Assembly: GCA_029050705.1 (NCBI GenBank)
Contig: JAIDME010000217.1
Span: 1 to 44,504, forward strand
Source of the DNA: Acetatifactor sp.
GTDB taxonomy: Bacteria; Bacillota; Clostridia; Lachnospirales; Lachnospiraceae
Reading direction: 5' to 3'
DNA length: 44,504 nt
Shown one piece after another: positions 164 to 13,113 of this stretch. Every line of letters starts with the position of its first letter. Position 1 is the stretch's first letter. The position numbers and the translations under genes were made by a program. The notes below the pieces were generated by a model, which saw only the letters and a list, made by a program, of their open reading frames with translations, was not told where the DNA came from and searched no databases.

Positions 164-955
164 CTATGCACGCTTGTCCCTGGCATTGCGGGCGTTGATA
201 ATGATCAGCAGCACCATCACCACCGCGAACATCATCGTGGACAACGCATTGATCTCCGGGCTGATACGTTTCCGGGTCATGGAGTAAATGTAAATAGGCA
301 GTGTCTGGGTGGTTCCGCTGGTAAAATAACTTATCACGAAATCATCAATGGAAAGCGTAAACGCCATGATCATCCCCGTTACAATTCCGGGCGTGATCTC
401 CGGCAGCACCACCTTGAAGAAAGCCTTCACCGGAGGACAGCCCAGATCCTGAGCCGCTTCATAAAGGTTAGGATCCATCTGACGCAGCTTGGGCAGTACG
501 GATAAGATCACATAGGGCAGGCAGAAAGTAATATGAGCCGCAAACAGCGATCCCATTCCCAGACTCCTCCCGCCGAAAATCCTGACTGCGAACACAAACA
601 GCAGCATCAGAGACACGCCGGTTACAATCTCGGGATTGACCATGGGAAAGTTTGTAATATTCATCATGATACGTCTGGGCAGGCGCTTCATGGAATTGAT
701 GCCGATCGCCGCCATGGTGCCCAGCACCGTGGATGCCGCCGCTGATACCACTGCGATGAGCAGTGTATTGCACAAAGCTTCCAGAATCAGCCTGTCCTCG
801 AAAAGCTTCCTGTACCAGCGCAGGGAAAATCCGCCCCATACCGTGCGGCTGGCAGTCTCCGTGTCATTGAAAGAGTACACGATCAGCACCAAAATAGGGG
901 CATATAAAAACAGAAAAATGAGAAAGGTATAAATACGCGCACCTGCCTTTTTCAT
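164..955 (-). CDS. potC: Spermidine/putrescine ABC transporter permease (PotC-like)
   Basis: ORF of 263 aa with several TM segments and an EAAxDLGxxxxxAFxxVxLPxI permease loop (EAAQDLGCPPVKAFFKVVLPEITPGI); directly downstream of potB/potA. Confidence 0.9.
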   Translation of the reverse strand: MKKAGARIYTFLIFLFLYAPILVLIVYSFNDTETASRTVWGGFSLRWYRKLFEDRLILEALCNTLLIAVVSAAASTVLGTMAAIGINSMKRLPRRIMMNITNFPMVNPEIVTGVSLMLLFVFAVRIFGGRSLGMGSLFAAHITFCLPYVILSVLPKLRQMDPNLYEAAQDLGCPPVKAFFKVVLPEITPGIVTGMIMAFTLSIDDFVISYFTSGTTQTLPIYIYSMTRKRISPEINALSTMMFAVVMVLLIIINARNARDKRA

Positions 956-1779
956 AGCAGCATACCTCCTCCTTCCACAGCCTCGCCGTCATCAAACTGA
1001 TTCATGATACCCATGCAGATCAGAATGATCACCATCAGCACCAGTGACACGGCGGAACCCAGATTGGGATTGTAGGCGCTGCCCAGAAACTGCATATCAA
1101 TCAGGTCGCCGATCAGCAGATTCCCGCCGCCGCCCAACATTTTTGATATGATAAACGTACTCACTGCCGGAACAAATACCATGGTGATGCCGGAGATCAC
1201 ACCGGGCATACTCAAAGGAATCACTACTTTCAAAAAAACTTCCCTGCTGTTGGCACCCAGATCCTGAGCCGCTTCTATCACACTCTTGTCAATTTTGGTC
1301 AGCACTGAATATAACGGCAGAATCATATACGGTATATAGTTGTAGACCATGCCAAGCACCACTGCTCCCGCTGTGTTGATCATATGTATCCGGGGAAGCC
1401 CTACAGCAGCCAATGCCGAATTGATCAGGCCGTTATCCTCCAGCAGTGTCATCCATGCATAGGTACGCAGCAGGAAATTCATCCACATGGGCAGCATCAC
1501 CAGCATCACCATGACATTCTGACGCCTGGCATTCATTTTGGCAATGATGTATGCCAGGGGATAACCCAGTCCCAGAGAAACCGCAGTTGCCACCGCCCCC
1601 AGCCAGATGGAACGTAAAAATACATTGGAATATTGTCCTACGCTTAAAATATTTTCTAAAGTAAAGCTGCCTGATTTATCCGTAAAGGCAAAGTATCCTA
1701 CCAACAGCATAGGCAGTACAATGAAAATGGTCATCCAGACAGTGTAAGGCGCAGAAAGCAATTTTGAATCAGACTTCAT
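952..1779 (-). CDS. potB: Spermidine/putrescine ABC transporter permease (PotB-like)
   Basis: [25 protein letters not shown] permease loop; the likely start is the internal Met ([15 protein letters not shown]), since the longer ORF to 1899 overlaps potA. Confidence 0.88.
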
Positions 1780-2917
1780 CCTCATTGCCCTCCTCTTCCG
1801 CCAACGCCTCATTGGAAGCATTCCTGTCTTCTCCCATTTCATCACTGAAGGTACTGTAGTCTCCGAACATACCGGAATATTCTGACTTGGCCATGACATG
1901 AATATCGTTGGGAGTAAGGGACAGTCCTATGTGGTCACCTGTCTCACAGCATTCCGTAGACTGTATCATCCACTTAAAGCCCTCCACATCCACAATGATC
2001 TCATAGTGCACGCCCTTAAAGGTCACAGCCGTGACATCCCCGGTGATCAGGGTGGAATCAGGCTCCACTACCTTGATGTCCTCCGGGCGTATCACTACAT
2101 CCACAGGTGTATTTTTGCCAAAACCGGCATCCAGACAACGGAAATTATGCCCGGCAAACTTCACGGAATAGTCCTCCTGCATGACGCCGTCCAGTATGTT
2201 GGATTCCCCGATGAAATCAGCCACAAAAGCATTCCTTGGCTCATTATAAATATCCATGGGAGTGCCGATCTGCTGTATCATACCCTTGTCCATCACCACC
2301 ACGGTATCGGACATGGACAGGGCTTCCTCCTGATCATGAGTGACGAATATAAAGGTAATCCCTGTCTGCTGCTGTATCTTTTTCAGTTCCGCCTGCATAT
2401 CCTTGCGCAATTTCATATCCAGAGCGCCTAACGGCTCATCCAACAGCAAAACCTTAGGTTCATTGGCCAATGCCCGGGCAATGGCTACTCTTTGCTGCTG
2501 CCCGCCCGAGAGCTGACTGATGCCGCGATGAGCATAGCCGGACATATCCACCATAGCCAGCATTCTGTGCACAGTCTCCTTGATCTGCTTCTCGCTGCAT
2601 TTCTTCAGTCGCATACCAAAAGCGATATTGTCATAAACATTCAGGTGAGGAAACAAAGCATATTTCTGGAAAATTGTGTTGACTTCCCTCTTGTGCGGGG
2701 GTAGGTTGGTTATGTTTTTGTCATAAAAAAAGACATCCCCTGCATCCGGTCTGATGAAACCGGCAATGGTGCGAAGCGCTGTGGTCTTGCCGCATCCGGA
2801 GGGGCCTAACAGGGTAACAAACTCCCCATCATGTATCTCCAGATTAAAGCCTCCCAGAACCTGCTCCCCATCATAAGAAACAGTGATATCTTTTAAGGAA
2901 ATAATAGTATTTTTCAA
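1769..2917 (-). CDS. potA: Spermidine/putrescine ABC transporter ATP-binding protein (PotA)
   Basis: Walker [10 protein letters not shown], signature [15 protein letters not shown], Walker [17 protein letters not shown]-like C-terminus. Confidence 0.95.
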
Positions 2918-3044: not shown

Positions 3045-3098
3045 TGCTTCCTTAATCGGCTATACTCGCCGCTACGCACAGCGCTCCCTCAGCTCACT
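3045..3098 (-). repeat. Degenerate S8 peptidase 3'-end remnant
   Basis: Reverse strand GGAGCGCTGTGCGTAGCGGCGAGTATAGCCGATTAA = GALCVAASIAD*, parallel to GALCVASSLPG* of the intact S8 gene. Confidence 0.6.
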
Positions 3099-3231
3099 TA
3101 TGTCAAGTTGCGAAACCCTTGCAGAGAAATCATTTTATTACCTTCATGTTTTGTCATCCACAAAAACAAAAAATCCGATTTGAGAGCAATATGACACTGC
3201 TCGCCCTTGTGGATTTGCTCCATGCCTGTTC

Positions 3232-4164
3232 CTAATAGAAATTAGCAATTCTCCCCTCATTTATTCCATAAATAAGATAATGCTTATACAGCTCACCCCT
3301 GTCATATCCAAATGCTGCTTCTAAATCGGAATATCTGTCGGCATAATCTATATAATCAAATTTATCTATCGTTACTTCTGTTCCCCCGAAATTAGCAATT
3401 CTCCCCTCATTTATTCCGTAAGCGAAATAGTGTTCATAAAGTGCATCTCTGTCATACCCAAATGCAGCTTTTAAATCGGAATACCTGTCGGCATAATCTA
3501 TATAATCAAATTCGTGCATCCTTCCTCCAATGGAGGCATATGTATCTGCCAACCAGGGATTGTTGCTGTCAATATCTGTAGGATCCCAATTTCTGCAGGG
3601 AGAATCTTCCGGTATTTTGATTGCTGTAGGCTTTCCAAGTTCCAATTGTTCTTCGCTGTCAGAGTATACAACTACGGTTGTACCGCGTTTACAGTTATCA
3701 TATATCCATTTGGCATCCTCGACAGATACTCGGACGCATCCTAACGATGCGCCTTCTCCAAGTTTATTGTACTCTTCCCATTCCAAAGTATCAGGGGATG
3801 CAGACAAATAGGGTACGGAATGGAACAGGATTGATTTATTAAAGCGGACTGCATATCTTCCATAAGTGCCATCTACCATTAGACACCATTCATAATAATT
3901 GGAAGTTTCAAAACTACCTTCCGGAGTATCATGTCCCTCTCTTCCACAGGAACAGACCATTGCCTTAACAGCTGTCAGAGTGCCGTCTTCATTTTGCTGC
4001 CTGATCGTAATACAGTTTAGAGCTTTGTTTACATAAATAATATAATCAGGTCTTGTATCATCTGCGGTATTTAATTCTGCCGCACTTACATTGACTGCAG
4101 AAAATAACATAATCAAACATACAAAACTTACTAAACTTATGATGGACGCCTTAAATATTTTCAT
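3232..4164 (-). CDS. L,D-transpeptidase (YkuD fold) with two C-terminal ~45-aa tandem repeats
   Basis: Signal peptide; LFHSVPY and SLGCVRVS catalytic motif; repeats FDYIDYADRYSDLKAAFGYDRDALYEHYFAYGINEGRIANF / FDYIDYADRYSDLEAAFGYDRGELYKHYLIYGINEGRIANF. Confidence 0.85.
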   Translation of the reverse strand: MKIFKASIISLVSFVCLIMLFSAVNVSAAELNTADDTRPDYIIYVNKALNCITIRQQNEDGTLTAVKAMVCSCGREGHDTPEGSFETSNYYEWCLMVDGTYGRYAVRFNKSILFHSVPYLSASPDTLEWEEYNKLGEGASLGCVRVSVEDAKWIYDNCKRGTTVVVYSDSEEQLELGKPTAIKIPEDSPCRNWDPTDIDSNNPWLADTYASIGGRMHEFDYIDYADRYSDLKAAFGYDRDALYEHYFAYGINEGRIANFGGTEVTIDKFDYIDYADRYSDLEAAFGYDRGELYKHYLIYGINEGRIANFY

Positions 4165-4291
4165 ATTAACTTCATTCCTTTTCTCTTTTGCATTTGATGT
4201 AGCTTTGTAATTCTATCATATTCTCAAAACAAACTCAACATTCAATTTATTAAGATTTTCTACACTATTGACGCACTGAAGACGAACAGGA

Positions 4292-4456
4292 TACTGTGTT
4301 AACTCACTCCGGTATACTCTCTGCTACGCACAGCGCCCCCCAGCCAACCCGGTCGTTAGGCAATTCCGCCTCCCCTCTTAAGGGTCTCGCCCCTTTCCTC
4401 AGATACGCCTTCACCTTCTCCCCATACAAAAACGGGTCATTCCCCCGCACGATTAC
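4292..4456 (-). repeat. Partial duplicate of the S8 peptidase 3' end (pseudogene fragment)
   Basis: 4323-4450 matches 11138-11265 with one mismatch (ccgCctcc vs ccgTctcc); encodes VRGNDPFLYGEKVKAYLRKGARPLRGEAELPNDRVGWGALCVA then ESIPE*. Confidence 0.93.
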
Positions 4457-4608
4457 CGCTGGTGTCAAGTAATTGCTACAGATTTTTTTAACTTTTTGCC
4501 TCGATTTTCCTTGAAAAATCGTTGGCTGGTGTTAGCTTATTGCTGTTTTACCAGGAGGTGCTGTTACATTGTTGCTGCACATGCTCTACCATAAATTTCC
4601 AATAGCTA

Positions 4609-5211
4609 TTAATTTAGATTTGTGCTGTTTTCTATATGCGACTGCATACTAAATAAAGAAATTTCAAAATGCATTTCCAAAGCATCAATATACTCTCTAC
4701 ATTCAATTTCCATCGGACAAGCAAGAAGTAAACTCTTTCCTGTTACTTTACTAACCCCAATATGTATATCCCAATCTTTTAAAATATCCATTCCAATCAA
4801 GATATTTCCTTTTCGATCATAATTCAGGCATATCTTATCAGATGATATCTTTACTCCACCTATCATAAAATCAGATATTCCGTGCTCAAATTTCATGGCT
4901 GGACACTCCATTTTTTCATCATCCGTAACCAGAATTTCATGCCTTAATCCTCCAGATTCAATTCCATAACTGAGAAAATATGGTGTACCATTCATAACAT
5001 CTATCTTTTTCAATGTTTTGAACAATGTGTCAGAAACTTTTAGCCTTTTGAGCGGAATGGTACTGATCGAACAACCTGTATCAATTTTCACTTTAATATC
5101 ATAAAAAGGCGCTTTAAAATTATCTAGACAAAAACTGGCTTCTGTACTGAATGAACCGCCTATCCCACAAGTTGTAGGCAACATTTCAATCTCTATATAT
5201 TTATTCATCAT
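4609..5211 (-). CDS. Retropepsin-like aspartyl protease
   Basis: IKVKIDTGCSISTIP (DTGxS active-site motif) and NILIGMDILKDWDIHIG (retropepsin-like C-terminal motif). Confidence 0.7.
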   Translation of the reverse strand: MMNKYIEIEMLPTTCGIGGSFSTEASFCLDNFKAPFYDIKVKIDTGCSISTIPLKRLKVSDTLFKTLKKIDVMNGTPYFLSYGIESGGLRHEILVTDDEKMECPAMKFEHGISDFMIGGVKISSDKICLNYDRKGNILIGMDILKDWDIHIGVSKVTGKSLLLACPMEIECREYIDALEMHFEISLFSMQSHIENSTNLN

Positions 5212-5482
5212 ATACAGCCATATCCTTCAATTCCTCTTTATCATTATAAATAGGAATTATCGTTTTTGGCTGCATAACCCAACTATCATATTCCTGATTT
5301 TGCACATCTCCACAAAACACAAGTTTTCCAATCGCACTCTCTGTATCGTCAAATAATAAGATCATATACTCATTATATATTTCACTAAGTTGTTCCGCCT
5401 TTGCCATCATGCTAATATACAAATCTTTTAGTGTATACTTCTTTTTCAGATATAGCCATTCTTTCGTGCTCCTTCCCTGCAT
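5201..5482 (-). CDS. Hypothetical small protein, translationally overlapping the retropepsin-like gene
   Basis: 93-aa ORF overlapping the next gene by 11 bp on the same strand; true start may be downstream. Confidence 0.55.
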   Translation of the reverse strand: MQGRSTKEWLYLKKKYTLKDLYISMMAKAEQLSEIYNEYMILLFDDTESAIGKLVFCGDVQNQEYDSWVMQPKTIIPIYNDKEELKDMAVYDE

Positions 5483-5549
5483 ATATACATTCAGCTACAT
5501 TATTTCCTTCTATGCTTCTTATTATGTTCTCTCTCAGAATTATACCATA

Positions 5550-5585
5550 AAGCAGGCGAATATAAAATCATCTTCGCCTGCTTTA
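5550..5585. terminator. Hairpin upstream of the retropepsin operon
   Basis: aaagcaggcgaatataaaatcatcttcgcctgcttt. Confidence 0.7.
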
Positions 5586-5684
5586 TTCTTCTCTCCACGT
5601 TCTCTCATTTTTCGGTCAATAAAGTTATTCTATTTCAAAGCAACAAACCAACTTGACGTGTTCGCCACAAAAATATGAATCTGC

Positions 5685-5942
5685 ATTAACTCACTCGGCA
5701 GACTCGAACTGACTCACAGCCCGCCCCAGCCCTCTTATGTCAAGTTAATGTCTCAAACTTTTTTGAAGTAAAATCGCTGAAACTCACATAACTTCGTTGG
5801 GTGTACGGTTAATTATTGCTAAGTTAGGGCAAAATAATGGTGATTATTGTCCAACAGTTTTTAAGTTAAATCAACTTTACCAATAGATATTTCTAAACAA
5901 AAGCCCCTCAACCCCTCCCTCAGATACTGGTTTGCCACTTCT
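5685..5942 (-). repeat. Split, degenerate S8 peptidase 3'-end remnant
   Basis: 5905-5942 reverse strand GGAGAAGTGGCAAACCAGTATCTGAGGGAGGGG resembles S8 GEKVKAYLRKG; 5685-5732 reverse strand GGCTGGGGCGGGCTGTGAGTCAGTTCGAGTCTGCCGAGTGAG resembles GWGALCVAxSxP*. Confidence 0.6.
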
Positions 5943-5943
5943 C

Positions 5944-8322
5944 CTACTTCAATTCTAGTTCAGTTCGAATAACTTTTATATTCTGTGCCATCTGAACAAT
6001 TGTCTCATGCGTGATGGCCTTTGAAAGCTTTGCCTCCAAATCGATTAGAACTTCACTCATAAGTATGTTACCTTTACTGTTTCGGAATAGCGAAGAATCT
6101 ACTTTAGACAACGCTTTATTTTTTGCATTTTCCAAATATTTTTCTGTTTTGGTCCGATTTTCCATTCCCATGCGCAATTTTCCAATCTGAATCTGAAGCA
6201 AAACATCGTTATTCCGCTGTGCCAATTTCATATGAATCTTTTTTCCTAACGTATTTGTCTCTAGCAGTATTTCTCGCCCGAAGTCAGAGACTTTATAGCT
6301 ATTGTCATCATCAATCTGGGCTACCAGTTCCCGTAGTAATAATACATTCGTACTTGAAAGGTTATCCGAAAGAAACATGTTCAAAGCCAAATCTATATTT
6401 GCCAGATATGCGTTCAGAGACAGGCGATCAGAAGCCTTTTGCATAGTAGCTTTCACCACGGTTTCCGCAAGCAAATTTGGCAGACATTTCCAGCCAATCT
6501 TTTTATACTTATCTTCAATGTTCCTCACCAATTCATCCTTAAAATTAGGGAAACACTGCTGATTGGGCACAGGATTTCTACCCGTTAACACATAATAAGT
6601 AATCATCCCAATGCTGAATACATCCACTGCCGTATTTCTGGTACCAGTTTCATGCTCATCCGTCTGCTCTGGTGCCATAAATCCCTGAGACATCTTACCT
6701 AAAGCCACCGTCAATTCCGTTGCACCTTTATGCCATGATAAGTCGAAATCCAAAATCACCACTTCTGGTATGTCATCTGAATATTCCCCATAAAAATCTT
6801 TAAGTATCACATTTTCCGGTTTTAAATCCCGATGCAAGATGCATTCCTCCAGATTATGGGACTGACAAATAATCTCAGCCATCTTTTTCAGAACTTGTAA
6901 TTTCTTATGAAATGACTGAAGCGCTTTTTTATCTATCGCATCACGAATTGTATATCCATCCACAAAATCCATAACTATACATGCTGGCACCTCATAAGAA
7001 GAATGTATTTTTACCATACCCTCCACATCATGCTCTTTCAATATTTTCATGGATCGGATTCCTCTACGGAAACAGCTTAAATATCTTACTTCATCCTTTA
7101 CTTCGGGAAGCAGAATCTTCACAGCAAATCTCTCTCCAGCGCCATTATATGCCTCATACACATTGCCAAATGCACCTCTTCCTACCGGTCTTTTTAACAG
7201 ATATCCATGCAGAATCTGTCCGTCATTGGAATCAACTTTCACATACCACGCTGCATAGAGCTGCATTGAATATGTTTTGTAGAATTCTTGCAATTTTTTT
7301 ATCTGTTCATTGGTTGGCACTGTATCAGCAGGTAAAATTTGTGCAATATTCCCATTTAATATATCCCTTAATTTATCCAACCCTATATCCAAACATTTCA
7401 TTGCTTCCGGGATATCTTCAGGTGCATATATTTTTCCTTCATATACCGTAGGATACTCTATGTCTTTCGGCAAATATTTGTGGATACTTTTAAGTATTTC
7501 CTCAATATCAGAATGATTCTCGTCTTCTGGGGTAGGAGAATATGAAATACAACTGATACCATAATCTCCAAACTTTCTCATATCCTCTGGTAAAATATTC
7601 GCACCAATATAATAATTATCATTTCCGGCAATCATTCCCTCTATTGAGATATCATTCAGCAATGACAGAAAACTATTTTCCCTTATATCAAAACCAACAA
7701 TCACCAGATTCTTTCCATTCAGTAATGTATTCAACACACTTTTAAGATTTCTGTCCCTATATGTCTCTCTTTTCTCCTCCTCTGTAAACACCCATGAAGA
7801 TGCATCGCTAATTTCACCATGAGGGAAGAAGACAAATTTCTCATTACTGGTGGGAAAATTGTTATATTTTAAAAATTCCTTTCTTGTGGCAAAGTCAACA
7901 GCAGTCCGATATACGTTAGAATAAGCATTAAGAATCAATTTATCTATATTAAATGTTATAACTCCACATACATCCAACTGCCAAATCAATTTGTAATTGA
8001 CTGGAATCGGACGATCTTTGTCAGATAAACGTTCCATAATATATTTTTTATATTCATTTTGAGGCAAAAGTTTTTTTAGTTCTTCAAAAACAGTCCAATA
8101 ATTCTCCGATGCCCTCAGCCTCTTTATCCTCTCCTCTGTAGAATCTATGGAATCCTGCATCATTTGCTCATAATTATCAATCATACCTTGTGCCAACTCT
8201 GACCACAAAGGCATTCCGGCAGGACGGGACATACCAGCACCTAAAACAAAAAGAAAGCTTTGCGGATTTTCCTTTATCTTTTTTGTAAGACGCAATAAAT
8301 TTTTATCAGTAGTATTATACAC
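5944..8322 (-). CDS. SIR2-like domain / serine-threonine protein kinase fusion, candidate anti-phage defence protein
   Basis: N-term VLGAGMSRPAGMPLWSELA, GVITFNIDKL, FFPHGEI, NLVIVGFDI (SIR2-like). Middle GRGAFGNVYEA, FAVKIL, ILHRDLKPENVIL, VILDFDLSWH, GFMAPEQ, AVDVFSIGMITYYVLTGRNP (Hanks-type kinase). Confidence 0.88.
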   Translation of the reverse strand: MYNTTDKNLLRLTKKIKENPQSFLFVLGAGMSRPAGMPLWSELAQGMIDNYEQMMQDSIDSTEERIKRLRASENYWTVFEELKKLLPQNEYKKYIMERLSDKDRPIPVNYKLIWQLDVCGVITFNIDKLILNAYSNVYRTAVDFATRKEFLKYNNFPTSNEKFVFFPHGEISDASSWVFTEEEKRETYRDRNLKSVLNTLLNGKNLVIVGFDIRENSFLSLLNDISIEGMIAGNDNYYIGANILPEDMRKFGDYGISCISYSPTPEDENHSDIEEILKSIHKYLPKDIEYPTVYEGKIYAPEDIPEAMKCLDIGLDKLRDILNGNIAQILPADTVPTNEQIKKLQEFYKTYSMQLYAAWYVKVDSNDGQILHGYLLKRPVGRGAFGNVYEAYNGAGERFAVKILLPEVKDEVRYLSCFRRGIRSMKILKEHDVEGMVKIHSSYEVPACIVMDFVDGYTIRDAIDKKALQSFHKKLQVLKKMAEIICQSHNLEECILHRDLKPENVILKDFYGEYSDDIPEVVILDFDLSWHKGATELTVALGKMSQGFMAPEQTDEHETGTRNTAVDVFSIGMITYYVLTGRNPVPNQQCFPNFKDELVRNIEDKYKKIGWKCLPNLLAETVVKATMQKASDRLSLNAYLANIDLALNMFLSDNLSSTNVLLLRELVAQIDDDNSYKVSDFGREILLETNTLGKKIHMKLAQRNNDVLLQIQIGKLRMGMENRTKTEKYLENAKNKALSKVDSSLFRNSKGNILMSEVLIDLEAKLSKAITHETIVQMAQNIKVIRTELELK

Positions 8323-8644
8323 GCTCTTTTCTCCTTTATCATTATTACAATATTAGCAAAACACTTTATTTGAAAAAGTATATCATATACACCAGTTTAC
8401 AACTTTTGAATACTTTTAAAACCCGACAAAATATAGCGCTCAATTATTTTAATTCAGGAAGCTTAATTTCTTTATAGTTTCGAGTTTTCTACAAAACTGC
8501 TGAACATTATGCTGGCCTGAATTTATTGTTCAATACCAAAACGGGGTTCCTCTACGCTGGCAACCTGGTAGCATGAAAAGGCTTCCTCACTAAATGAGCG
8601 CAGCGTCATGGCGCTATTACTTCGGCAGTTAAATCCCGCAACCT

Positions 8645-9710
8645 TTAACAACCATATTTTTCAATATAATTTAGTTTCCTATGCTTGAACAAACTTGCGA
8701 CTCTTTCCTTATGTTCCTGCAATCTATGCATATAAGCCTCTGTCTTTTGCTGATTCTGCACTTTAGTGTGCGGAATTATTCCGCTATGTATATTTTGTTT
8801 AAGGTTATGGTTAAGGTACTCATCCGGATTTATTTCCGGCGAATATGGCGACGTATAGAATATCTCTATCTCATCTTTGTGTGAATCCAGCCACTCGTTT
8901 ACGATCTTTTCATGATGTACCTTCAGGTTATCCACTATGAACAAGACTTTTAGTCGGCATCTTTTACAAGGCGCTCCATAAGGTCAATAAAAAACTGCTG
9001 GATCATATTTTCTTCATAGCATATGAAGCGGCAGGTTCCATGGTTGGTGATTGCATAAACCATGTTAATTTTTTCTATCTTGTTATAGGCTACTATTTCA
9101 GGCGTCCTCCCTTTGGTTGAATAGCCTTTGACATGGTATACCTGGTTGTTGATGCCTGTTTCATCACCCTAGTATATTTCCGCATCCTCCTTCTCGACTT
9201 TTTCAACGATGCCGGAATATGTCTCATGCATAAATGCATTGAATTTGACATTATCCTGAAAATAAGCTTTCCTTGTCGGACACTGGCAGATCATCCCCCA
9301 ACATTTGCGGTACTCGCTCATGTTCCTAGGGGGTTATAGTAATGCCGTATTTATCATATATGATTTCACAGACTGCTACACGAATCCAAAGCATGAAATT
9401 CAATTTCAACTGGTCAGAATGTTTGTCAATTAATATGCCCTGGATTTCCTTTTCCTGTCCAGGTGATAACTGACGTTTTTCACCCAGTTTACGGCTGCGT
9501 GTCTTTTCTTTAAGGCACTTAGCGCCCTCCCTATTATAGACGCCTAAAAAACGGTCAACAGCATATTTGAAAATGCCCCATGCTTCAACAATATCTTTAT
9601 GTTTGATCCCCTTCTTAAGCATAGAGACTGCCTGTTTTTTAATAACTTCTCTTGTATCCAGATTTTCTGATGTAAGGTTTATATTTTCCATTCCCGCTTT
9701 TCGGGAGCGT
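8645..9710 (-). pseudogene. IS630-family transposase remnant (frameshifted/interrupted)
   Basis: C-term FIVDNLKVHHEKIVNEW...FYTSPYSPEINPDEYLNHNLKQNI (DDE); a further GDETGINNQVYHVKGYSTKGRTPEIV-like region near 9.05-9.2 kb; N-term HTH TREVIKKQAVSMLKKGIKHKDIVEAWGI in the 9326-10111 ORF. Confidence 0.75.
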
Positions 9711-10553
9711 AACAATGGCATAGCCCCCCGTTCTCCCCACAGCTTGGTGAGCACTGGGCGCATGCCTGTCTTCCAGTCCCCGGTTTTTGGAGATTCAAGC
9801 TCGGATTTTTCCGGTGATAGACGTTCGCCATATTTCTTTGGCCGGCCACGTTTCCCCGTGCGTTCAGGCGGGAGATCATACATGACAATGTCAATCCTGA
9901 CGTTACAGATGATGTCAAGGTAATGGAACTCATTTACAAGACCTGCAACGCACTCTTTTGGATACCAGCTGTCACAGAGCAGGAACACCTGCCTGTCCGG
10001 ACCGATCTTATCCATTGCGCGTCCCACAATCTCCGCGGCATTTCCAGCTTTGTCGTTTTTTGTTCCAAAGTCGGCAGCCCAGCGGGACAGATAGATAGCG
10101 AATGGAACCATCAGCCATAACAGGGAATGACAGCAGGATGCTTACCATGCAGAGTCATCCAGATAATTGGAGCCGTTATACGCGACATGGTCGAAGAGCC
10201 TTGAGTGGATTTCAAGCTTTTCGCCTTCCTTTTCCACCATAGTGTCATCAATGGGAAGAAAAAGCGGCTGCTCCTTTAAATAGTCAGGCACCGTCCTCAA
10301 CACTTTGGATAGTGTCACATTCCTCCAGAATTCGTGGTCCAGCCTGTCGGTTTTAATCGCATAGTAGCATGCATTCAGTGATGTGTCTGAAAGATTTGAG
10401 AGCACATGCCTGTGTGCAAATCGTACAGACCGAAAAAAACAGCGCCAATATGGAAACAACAATAAGGAACAGGTTCCTAGTAGTAGGTTTTGTTGCATCG
10501 GAAAAATATTCATCAAAATAAGGTTTCAGTTTGTCCAAGACAGAACTTTTCAT
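9711..10553 (-). pseudogene. IS4/IS701-like DDE transposase remnant, truncated by the IS630-like element and frameshifted
   Basis: Fragments LKPYFDEYFSDATKPTTRNLFLIVVSILAL, PLFLPIDDTMVEKEGEKLEIHSRLFDHVAYNGSNYLDD, VFLLCDSWYPKECVAGLVNEF, KRGRPKKYGERL in shifting frames. Confidence 0.7.
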
Positions 10554-11118
10554 GTATAATAAGCGGTAGAAACAAACTCATCTCTTTTCGTAGGGTTTTG
10601 CTCAACGCTTTATTCACGCAATGAAGAACATGTGTTTGTGTCTTTATTTTAAAATAGTTTTAAACTGGTGTATAATTATGTTACAATGGAAAATATAGTT
10701 TTTCCATATTATTTCATCGACAAAATTCGACATTTTCAGACAATTATCTTTTTTTGTGGACATTATTTCACCGTTTAAAATCATTCTTAAACCTTTTTCA
10801 TATATACTAATTTTTCTTCTGCCTAATTATCCATATAAAAGAATTCGCATTATCACATCAAATCCCTTTTCTTACTTTCAACAAGCCCCCTCACTTATGT
10901 ACTTTATCCAAATCATTTTTTCACTTAGTTAAAGCCAGTATATGGTTCAGTAAACTATTTTATCCATTTACAGTCCGCATACTTTAAGGAATTGGCAGAA
11001 CAAAAATATGCCCACCACCCATTTACAGGCTAACACTTTTCATGCTTTAATAATAAATACACGTTTTAAAAAATAAAGGAATCAGTTCGATTCATCTGTC
11101 CCATAAACATTATCCATT

Positions 11119-13113
11119 TCACCCCGGAAGACTTGAGGCTACGCACAGCGCCCCCCAGCCAACCCGGTCGTTAGGCAATTCCGTCTCCCCTCTTAAGGGT
11201 CTCGCCCCTTTCCTCAGATACGCCTTCACCTTCTCCCCATACAAAAACGGGTCATTCCCCCGCACAATTCCCCACTCCATGAGCAGGGCCGCCGCCCCGG
11301 TGACTATGGGAGTGGCAAAGGAAGTTCCTGTGACGGGCAGATAGCTGCCGTAAATGTCCGGTGCCGTCACTCCCACTCCCGGCGCCACCAGGTCCGGCTT
11401 CACCAGCCCGGAGGTCACAACTCCTATGGTCCGGTCCGCGTCCGCATACCCTCTGCCTGAAAAATCCGCATAGGCATCATAGGTGCTGTCATAGGCCCCC
11501 ACTGTGATGACCTTTGCCGCCGTGGAGGGAATGGTCAGGGTCACCTCCGGTGTGGGACGGTAAAAACCGGTTGTCGCGCTGCGGGCGGCCGCGCTGGGCA
11601 GATAAAAATAATACTGTCCGGTTACGATTTCAATGCCTTCCAGGCGCACCATCCACACCCCACTGTTGATGTACCGCCGCCCGGAGGGGATCAGTTCCAG
11701 ATAGATTTCCTGTGCTGCCGCGTAGGGCGTGGGTTCCCCCATGTAGACCAGCACCTCCGTCTGCTCCAGTCGCAATGTATACTTTCCATTCTCCACAGAC
11801 AGCGGCAGTTCCGACTCCTGCCCTCCGGGTGCGCGCAGCCGAATCCTATATACGTCACTGTAATTTTTCCACAGCTGAATGCTCAGAGAACTCTCGTACT
11901 CTCCCACCGCAATCTCCACATCTGCCGTGCGGGCTGCTGTGCTGATTCCAGATACCGTTCTACCGATTCCGGACGCTGATGTGCCAACACCCTGCATCGT
12001 CTGTCCGCTCCCTGCTCCTGCCCCGTCGATTCTTCCCAGTCTTCCGGCCAGATGACCGGCACTTGCTCCGTCATTTCCGCTGCCTACGCAGATGACCGTC
12101 CTGCCGATCTCCGCCGCATTATCCATGAACCGCTCCAGAAGGGAACTGCCGTCATGGGCTCCGTAGCTGTTGCCGAAGCTTAGATTAATGGCCAGAGGCA
12201 TCTGCAGTTCCTGAGCCTTTCTCACTGCCCAGGTCACTCCCCGCATGATCTCCGTAGTCCTGGGAAAGGATGCTGCGTCCGGCAGCCCAAGCTTCACGAT
12301 CAGCAGCTCCGCCTCAGGCGCCGCCCCGCTGTAGTACTGCGCACCACCAAAAGGACTGGTGTTTCCGCCTCCTCCGCTGTACCCGGCGGCAATTCCGGCC
12401 ACCGCCGTGCCGTGGCCGCTTGTGTCCACCGTGGGAAGAAGCATAAACTGCTGCTGCGGTGTATCCGCCTGTAACGCTGCATTAATCTGTGCCGCGCCAA
12501 ATTCCACCCCCTGCCGAAATCCCGCAGGGGGACGACGCGCAGATTCAACGAATTCCGCCGACATGCCATCATCCCCTATCCCTGTGGATCCGCCCTCCGT
12601 CCCCAGACGCCTTTCTTCGCCCCCGATATCAACATCGGAAAAAGTATCAGACCGCAGAGTCTGATCCCACAGATAACGAATCCTTGTGCTGCCGTCGGAA
12701 TGCCGGAAAACCGGCAGCCGATAATCGATGCCGCTGTCCAGAACCGCCACCAGCACCCCCTTTCCCGTCAGAGAAAAACCCTGCCCGGATAACTGCTGTA
12801 TGCAGGAATCCGCGACAGGGTTCGTCACCTCATAGAAAAAGCGTTTGGGCTTTTCCACATATTCAATTTCCTCCAGTTCCACAACGCGCTCAACCAGTCC
12901 CTCCGGAACGGTAAGCACGGCATATCCTGCAATCAGATACTCAATCTGCACATTTAAAACCGACAGCACATCCAGACTTCCGTGATACTTTACAATCAGC
13001 TCCCAGGTCCTCTCAATGCCGTTAAATCCTACATTCAACTCCTCCGTACGCTCTCTTGTCTCCTCCGATGTCTGCAGCGCCAGCTGCAAAAGGTCCTCCA
13101 GCTTCTGATTCAT
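11119..13113 (-). CDS. S8 (subtilisin-like) family peptidase, Csp/germination-protease-like
   Basis: Catalytic Asp GVLVAVLDSGIDY, His DTSGHGTAVAGIAAG, Ser GTSFATPIVTGAAALL; start chosen at MNQKLEDLLQ behind GGAGGCGTGAC. Confidence 0.92.
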   Translation of the reverse strand: MNQKLEDLLQLALQTSEETRERTEELNVGFNGIERTWELIVKYHGSLDVLSVLNVQIEYLIAGYAVLTVPEGLVERVVELEEIEYVEKPKRFFYEVTNPVADSCIQQLSGQGFSLTGKGVLVAVLDSGIDYRLPVFRHSDGSTRIRYLWDQTLRSDTFSDVDIGGEERRLGTEGGSTGIGDDGMSAEFVESARRPPAGFRQGVEFGAAQINAALQADTPQQQFMLLPTVDTSGHGTAVAGIAAGYSGGGGNTSPFGGAQYYSGAAPEAELLIVKLGLPDAASFPRTTEIMRGVTWAVRKAQELQMPLAINLSFGNSYGAHDGSSLLERFMDNAAEIGRTVICVGSGNDGASAGHLAGRLGRIDGAGAGSGQTMQGVGTSASGIGRTVSGISTAARTADVEIAVGEYESSLSIQLWKNYSDVYRIRLRAPGGQESELPLSVENGKYTLRLEQTEVLVYMGEPTPYAAAQEIYLELIPSGRRYINSGVWMVRLEGIEIVTGQYYFYLPSAAARSATTGFYRPTPEVTLTIPSTAAKVITVGAYDSTYDAYADFSGRGYADADRTIGVVTSGLVKPDLVAPGVGVTAPDIYGSYLPVTGTSFATPIVTGAAALLMEWGIVRGNDPFLYGEKVKAYLRKGARPLRGETELPNDRVGWGALCVASSLPG

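Follow-up and report, generated by a model that had tools for sequence, protein, structure and literature searches.

An S8 protease gene of Lachnospiraceae as the probable integration platform for elements with serine recombinase triplets, and the proposed stack of recombinase-less cassettes beside it

In a 44,504-nucleotide stretch of DNA from Acetatifactor sp. (GenBank assembly GCA_029050705.1, contig JAIDME010000217.1; hereafter the window), an intact gene for an S8 protease most probably serves as an integration platform for elements bearing three large serine recombinases (LSRs) in tandem, and the window most probably holds a stack of cassettes that lack recombinases; we put the probability of this reading at roughly 0.8. 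As contig C132, the window forms part of a 3.99-Mb genome assembled into 552 contigs (90.5% complete, 5.7% contamination). The family comprises hundreds of genera, and those relatives that bear names are Acetatifactor and uncultured Lachnospiraceae. Given that the S8 gene lies on the minus strand with its stop at 11119, the displaced copies of its 3' end (scars) lie downstream of it, and the array extends from S8 to the potABC genes (2917 and below). The features on which the argument is built are as follows.

11119 to 13113, minus strand: S8 platform gene, an intact subtilase with a CspB prodomain, 664 aa (Pfam PF00082, PF18425)
11119 to 11272, minus strand: present S8 3' tail, containing tail-profile positions 30, 60 and 141
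near 11272, minus strand: class B attachment position, EWG/IVRG (cut between G and I), tail-profile position 30, occupied in relatives
near 11242, minus strand: class A attachment position, FLY/GEK (cut between Y and G), tail-profile position 60, occupied in relatives
near 11161, minus strand: class C attachment position, VGWG, tail-profile position 141, occupied in relatives
12724 to 12736, minus strand: further attachment site at the catalytic-Asp motif DSG/ID (cut between G and I), empty in the window; S8 is split there in G028, G014 and G555
4304 to 4457, minus strand: scar B, a displaced S8 tail including the stop codon, 94% identical over 154 nt to S8 11119-11272, contiguous with the L,D-transpeptidase gene as in G036
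4458 to 4579, minus strand: class B right end, ...GTAGCAATTACTTGACACCAGC followed by scar B at 4457, collinear over the junction with those elements of G465, G488, G516 and G028 that bear triplets
5691 to 5732, minus strand: scar C1, a displaced S8 tail end of class C; its score is reached by 0 of 300-500 shuffles
5733 to 5851, minus strand: class C right end, ...GACATTAACTTGACATAAGA followed by scar C1 at 5732, matching L150 and L121 (in both, this end likewise adjoins an S8 tail) and G497
3051 to 3098 (approximate), minus strand: scar C2, probably the oldest displaced tail, adjoining potA; its scores are reached by 0/500 and 0/300 shuffles
3097 to 3120, minus strand: class C-like right end, by its sequence, ...CAACTTGACATAAG followed by scar C2 at about 3098

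The significance of the degenerate pieces was assessed by comparing their alignment scores to S8 tails with those of 300-500 dinucleotide shuffles. The initial annotation had reported that the 3' end of S8 recurs between the accessory genes, and this was borne out for scar B, for scar C1, whose score of 52-54 in alignment to S8 tails compares with 28-31 for the best shuffle, and for the shorter scar C2, which reaches 45 when aligned to the 4304-4457 tail (best shuffle 27) and 35 against 25 S8 tails. A further piece at 5905-5942 was rejected, its score being matched by 32/300 shuffles, and two of the three degenerate pieces therefore stand. Scar B and the S8 tail are sisters in the window: they share 98.4% identity over tail-profile positions 33-157, whereas neither copy exceeds 90.4% identity to another S8 in the comparison, and they diverge abruptly in the final ~25 bp, as the block of 127 identities in 128 nucleotides described earlier implies.

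Each real scar is a junction in which a conserved element right end (…ACTTGACAnnAG) is joined to a displaced S8 3' tail. The upstream edge is sharp in every case, in disagreement with random erosion, and no scar holds S8 sequence upstream of the attachment positions. These observations bear on the second of two explanations that had been offered, a former tandem array of S8 paralogues that was eroded and filled with cargo. Several S8 3' ends do stand in a row on the same strand, and a second S8 paralogue exists elsewhere in the genus, but scars that begin at attachment positions beside element ends, together with the presence of a single S8 or tail at the site in G036 and G014, make such an array very improbable.

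The right-end/S8-tail junctions occur at the same three S8 positions in approximately 20 related Lachnospiraceae genomes (Acetatifactor and its kin) from independent assemblies, a count that is a lower bound because short tails are hard to detect. Class B junctions are found in the window, G028, G465, G488, G516 (with a variant end), G027, G001 and G553; class A junctions in G010, G460 (two), G498, G497, G014 and G494; and class C junctions in the window (two), G497, G019, L150 and L121. Using BLASTN, the match of the window runs unbroken through the class B junction into G465, G488, G516, G553, G028 and G027, and scar C1 aligns over its upstream junction to G497 (window 5690-5773, 83.5%, E 7e-16). 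A scan of 138 genomes of the genus for the class B end, allowing at most one mismatch, gave 8 copies, 7 of them abutting S8 tails and 1 cut by a contig end. A single scan of genome contigs returned mostly genomes already known, the additions being a weak class A scar (L161) and the class C scars of L150 and L121. The fixed scar edges uphold the first explanation proposed for the site, a recurrent integration site where every arrival leaves a tail, and cargo that varies between genomes was seen rather than invariant cargo between identical scars.

The less filled site of G036, in which S8, the L,D-transpeptidase gene and potABC follow each other, points in the same direction: it is without the 6.8-kb block of the window, keeps the S8 tail and the L,D-transpeptidase contiguous, and matches window 3203-4457 at 93.6%. 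The fragmentation and contamination of the source assembly would favour an artefact of assembly or binning. Nevertheless, the same junctions recur in about 20 other assemblies, the two tails differ in their ends and flanks, and G036 matches 1,259 bp spanning scar B and its flank, so that an artefact is barely worth entertaining.

Elements with an LSR triplet occupy these same codons in living lineages. In five genomes S8 is cut at one of two of the tail positions by an element with three tandem LSRs at its right end: class B cuts end S8 at residue 615 in G028, G465 and G516, and class A cuts end it at residue 625-629 in G014 and G494, with the tail lying beyond the LSR triplet in both classes. 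The insert that splits S8 after residue 615 measures 10 kb in G028 and 8.4 kb in G465, the two S8 halves of G516 lie on two contigs, and in G014 the halves are 96 kb apart. Three adjacent LSRs at one element end were observed in G028, G465, G488, G516, G014, G494 and G553, and the domains of the G028 triplet are Resolvase, Recombinase and zinc-ribbon. A small protein is encoded ahead of 8/9 triplets examined, including one elsewhere in the genome of the window, the exception being G555; it has a Pfam DUF6870 match in G028 and resembles that protein by eye in the others. Our search of the full-text literature found no paper on DUF6870. When the ends of the G014 insert are joined by eye they give an inverted-repeat, attP-like sequence, which would fit the expectation for serine integrases. 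Because motifs are repeated close to the right end and the termini are TGT..ACA-like, an IS21-like or Tn7-like transposon was considered; it was dropped because no target-site duplication was seen and LSR triplets stand at the ends.

The S8 gene of G028 is split twice (L174/L042, G028:C15:31186-59025). The insert at the catalytic Asp is about 16 kb long and has an LSR triplet of its own together with chemotaxis-like genes; the other, the 10-kb insert after residue 615, holds a triplet and sulfate-assimilation-like genes.

Considering that S8 carries a CspB prodomain, the LSR insertions might instead be developmental intervening elements, comparable to skin, gin and yin, with S8 acting only in spores or germination, the recombinases excising to rejoin it, and the window array being a decayed form in which S8 had to stay whole. 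In agreement with this, the frames of the displaced tails are open in LSR-bearing loci, SpoIVA is present in 5/5 genomes with an LSR-split S8 (6/8 of the genomes looked at), gin has three serine recombinases and yin splits yabG. On the other hand, there is no evidence of a spore-specific S8 and excision was not observed. SpoIVA was not found in the genome of the window or in G010, which leaves a role of S8 in spores as no more than a suggestion, and we regard this alternative as rather unlikely. If S8 is a germination protease, its split alleles would extend the short list of developmentally rearranged genes.

Taking S8 as an integration platform, LSR-triplet elements, usually with a small DUF6870-type protein ahead, would integrate at fixed S8 codons and split the gene, its 5' part running into the left end of the element and the displaced tail being fused to the right end. 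Cargo units without recombinases would persist as cassettes with a right end and a displaced tail as distal border, and at least three of these would be stacked between S8 and potABC in the window. For the restoration of the S8 tail we favour a route in which units of the form tail, cargo, right end re-enter by exchange inside the tail, mediated either by RecA or by LSRs acting on non-canonical sites. For CcrAB, action on attR x attR has been reported (as cited in PMC5595907). Repair from an uninserted allele may be an alternative route. These particular LSRs would be the catalysts of the integration.

Several observations weigh against this reading. S8 is split in the LSR-bearing loci whose 5' part was found and intact in all recombinase-less arrays, a state that simple attP x attB insertion leaves unexplained. 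No LSR genes were matched in the window, those of this genome being on C92 and C56, and the only triplet seen in the genome lies on C92 in a polysaccharide deacetylase gene, with the frame of its first recombinase broken. No class C right end joined to a triplet was seen. Finally, nearly all the genomes compared are metagenome-assembled, and no circles were observed.

The same intactness of S8 would fit an alternative in which the LSR junctions are ancient and the present gain and loss of cassettes depends solely on RecA, the S8 tail recombining homologously with displaced tails (~40-150 bp) and DNA from other strains being used. The sister relationship of the S8 tail and scar B argues for it, as do S8 tails that are mosaics between species with variable edges, and cassette-specific sequence that starts only within the last ~25 bp of S8 and not at the attachment positions. 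Displaced tails, however, start only at a handful of positions and always beside a conserved end, implying that the junctions themselves are site-specific, and LSR-bearing insertions exist in living lineages. We consider exclusive RecA-dependent turnover a real possibility, if short of probable.

Two further ideas on the S8 tails were not supported. Conservation at the DNA level as the reason for the high identity of tails between species was rejected, the synonymous codon identity of the tail (~0.32-0.55) being not above that of the body; and a tail switch borne by the cassette exactly at the attachment position in all cases does not fit mosaic edges that differ.

The cargo between the scars and the distal neighbour of the site are given below.

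5944 to 8322, minus strand: SIR2-like and Ser/Thr kinase protein, 792 aa, cargo (Pfam SIR2_2, Pkinase; PADLOC mad6, PD-T4-6, LmuA)
4609 to 5482, minus strand: retropepsin-like 200-aa protein (DTG motif, by eye) and 93-aa partner, cargo, with DNA matches in relatives
3232 to 4164, minus strand: L,D-transpeptidase (YkuD) with C-terminal repeats, cargo (Pfam PF03734), adjoining S8 in G036
8386 to 10674, no strand given: degraded insertion sequence in the presumably newest cassette, with 22-nt terminal inverted repeats and broken transposase frames
164 to 2917, minus strand: potABC-type transporter genes, distal neighbour of the site; PotA is near an S8 array or displaced tail in relatives

The cargo of the window is met beside S8 in relatives. 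The DNA of the SIR2-kinase is 70% identical downstream of S8 in L165, with one other ORF between, and that of the retropepsin pair (4591-5512) is 90% identical in G528 and 82% identical directly after S8 in G460, where it begins 73 bp past the S8 stop, compared with 78 bp past scar C1 in the window. The retropepsin pair gave no Pfam match, and the retropepsin-like protein itself no match in a PDB sequence search. Since window cargo adjoins S8 in G036, G460 and L165, sequential arrival with the newest unit nearest S8 is most likely, and the simplest order would be an original S8-potABC pair, then the L,D-transpeptidase, the retropepsin pair and the SIR2-kinase, each entering beside S8. PotA is the distal neighbour in G036, G528, G553 and G014 (in G014 the displaced tail abuts PotA). 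The same architecture carries other cargo elsewhere, including JetA of Wadjet, an AAA ATPase, a phosphofructokinase, a Fic-like gene (by motif) and a toxin-antitoxin pair accompanied by an adenosine-deaminase-like gene (by eye).

The scars may be read as a fossil record of the sequence in which gut Lachnospiraceae, most of them uncultured, acquired genes. Genes of defence type (SIR2-kinase, JetA of Wadjet and AAA ATPases) accumulate at the hotspot together with metabolic cassettes, and the site could therefore be mined for unknown defence genes. The elements also offer new serine recombinases with natural attB sites in coding genes, the DUF6870-type protein being a candidate directionality factor.

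Serine integrase triplets are already known from streptococcal integrative and conjugative elements (Ambroset et al., 2016, PMC4701971), which likewise have three adjacent integrases at one end, all oriented alike with respect to the target gene, insert within and disrupt a protein-coding gene (mutT, traG or hsdM), and show very short direct repeats. The parent elements in the relatives belong to this triplet-LSR kind by two tested features, a triplet at one end and site-specific insertion in a protein-coding gene; the array in the window lacks the recombinase genes of such an element. Unlike the streptococcal elements, those described here target an S8 protease gene with several attachment codons, and most units are small and without recombinase. 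The gin element in gerE of Bacillus cereus also splits a gene and has three serine recombinase genes, with a small recombination directionality factor, GirX (PMC5595907), of which the DUF6870 protein is a candidate counterpart, and yin interrupts the sporulation protease gene yabG (PMC10747680). The target here is instead a CspB-prodomain protease gene, and cassette arrays with displaced tails are not described for gin.

The staphylococcal cassette chromosome (SCC; rlmH, CcrAB/CcrC) and the Enterococcus cassette chromosome share with this site the large serine recombinases, the use of the 3' end of a single chromosomal gene, stacked elements with attachment repeats between them, and recombinase-less remnants. 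In contrast to SCC, a triplet takes the place of the ccr genes (no comparison with Ccr proteins was run), the sites lie 12-50 codons inside the gene so that a full element truncates it, and the displaced tails measure ~40-150 bp instead of being short attachment repeats. The working of the site is SCC-like, and with an S8 protease gene in place of rlmH it is not SCC. As in integrons, growth is polar beside a fixed platform and small non-autonomous cargo units are re-used in other positions; unlike integrons, serine recombinases are found in the relatives and the platform is a protease gene. IntI and attC were not noticed in the array, for which no specific search was made. It is conceivable, if doubtful, that the system is a serine-recombinase counterpart of the integron, with S8 as a fixed platform that exchanges its tail whenever a unit inserts, and small cassettes of S8 tail, cargo and right end, several of defence type, captured in polar order while S8 stays intact and moving between species with LSR triplets acting in trans. 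Our searches of the open-access literature turned up no earlier description of this S8 gene as a target, of a single gene with several attachment codons or of cassette arrays in which the target gene is spared, and these three features are, as far as found, what is new.

Right ends with other terminal bases (GACAGAA, GACATCA), in L190, L196, L197 and L200 and in L193 and L198, adjoin other genes, at either an Xre-like EQxVSKWE motif or a motif of polysaccharide deacetylase, and the right-end sequence seems to go with the target gene. On C92 of the genome of the window (L173, G000:C92, 7304-12960), a DUF6870-like ORF precedes the LSR triplet, and the right end ...CTTGACACGAG abuts part of the polysaccharide deacetylase gene. 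The S8 stop of G019 (L034 5820-5890) is followed within about 20 bp by a class C-like right end and by another S8 tail end, an almost empty cassette. In G001 (L029 2900-2945) and G553 (L078) the last 8 codons (GTCAGTTCCGGTCTGCCGGAGTGA) are repeated right after the S8 stop, perhaps as the residue of a lost unit. The more distant S8 paralogue, present in the genome of the window (G000:C239:4734-4907) and in many related ones, is ~45% identical over the probed segment. The array of G460 includes as cargo, flanked by retropepsin remnants on one side and by a class A right end on the other, a gene for a 1,370-aa protein with a weak LmuA match only (L070 325-4437, G460:C22), a candidate unknown defence gene. 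The end of the L,D-transpeptidase gene (window 3238-3526) contains two 139-nt direct repeats, 83% identical, encoding YADRYSDL-type units.

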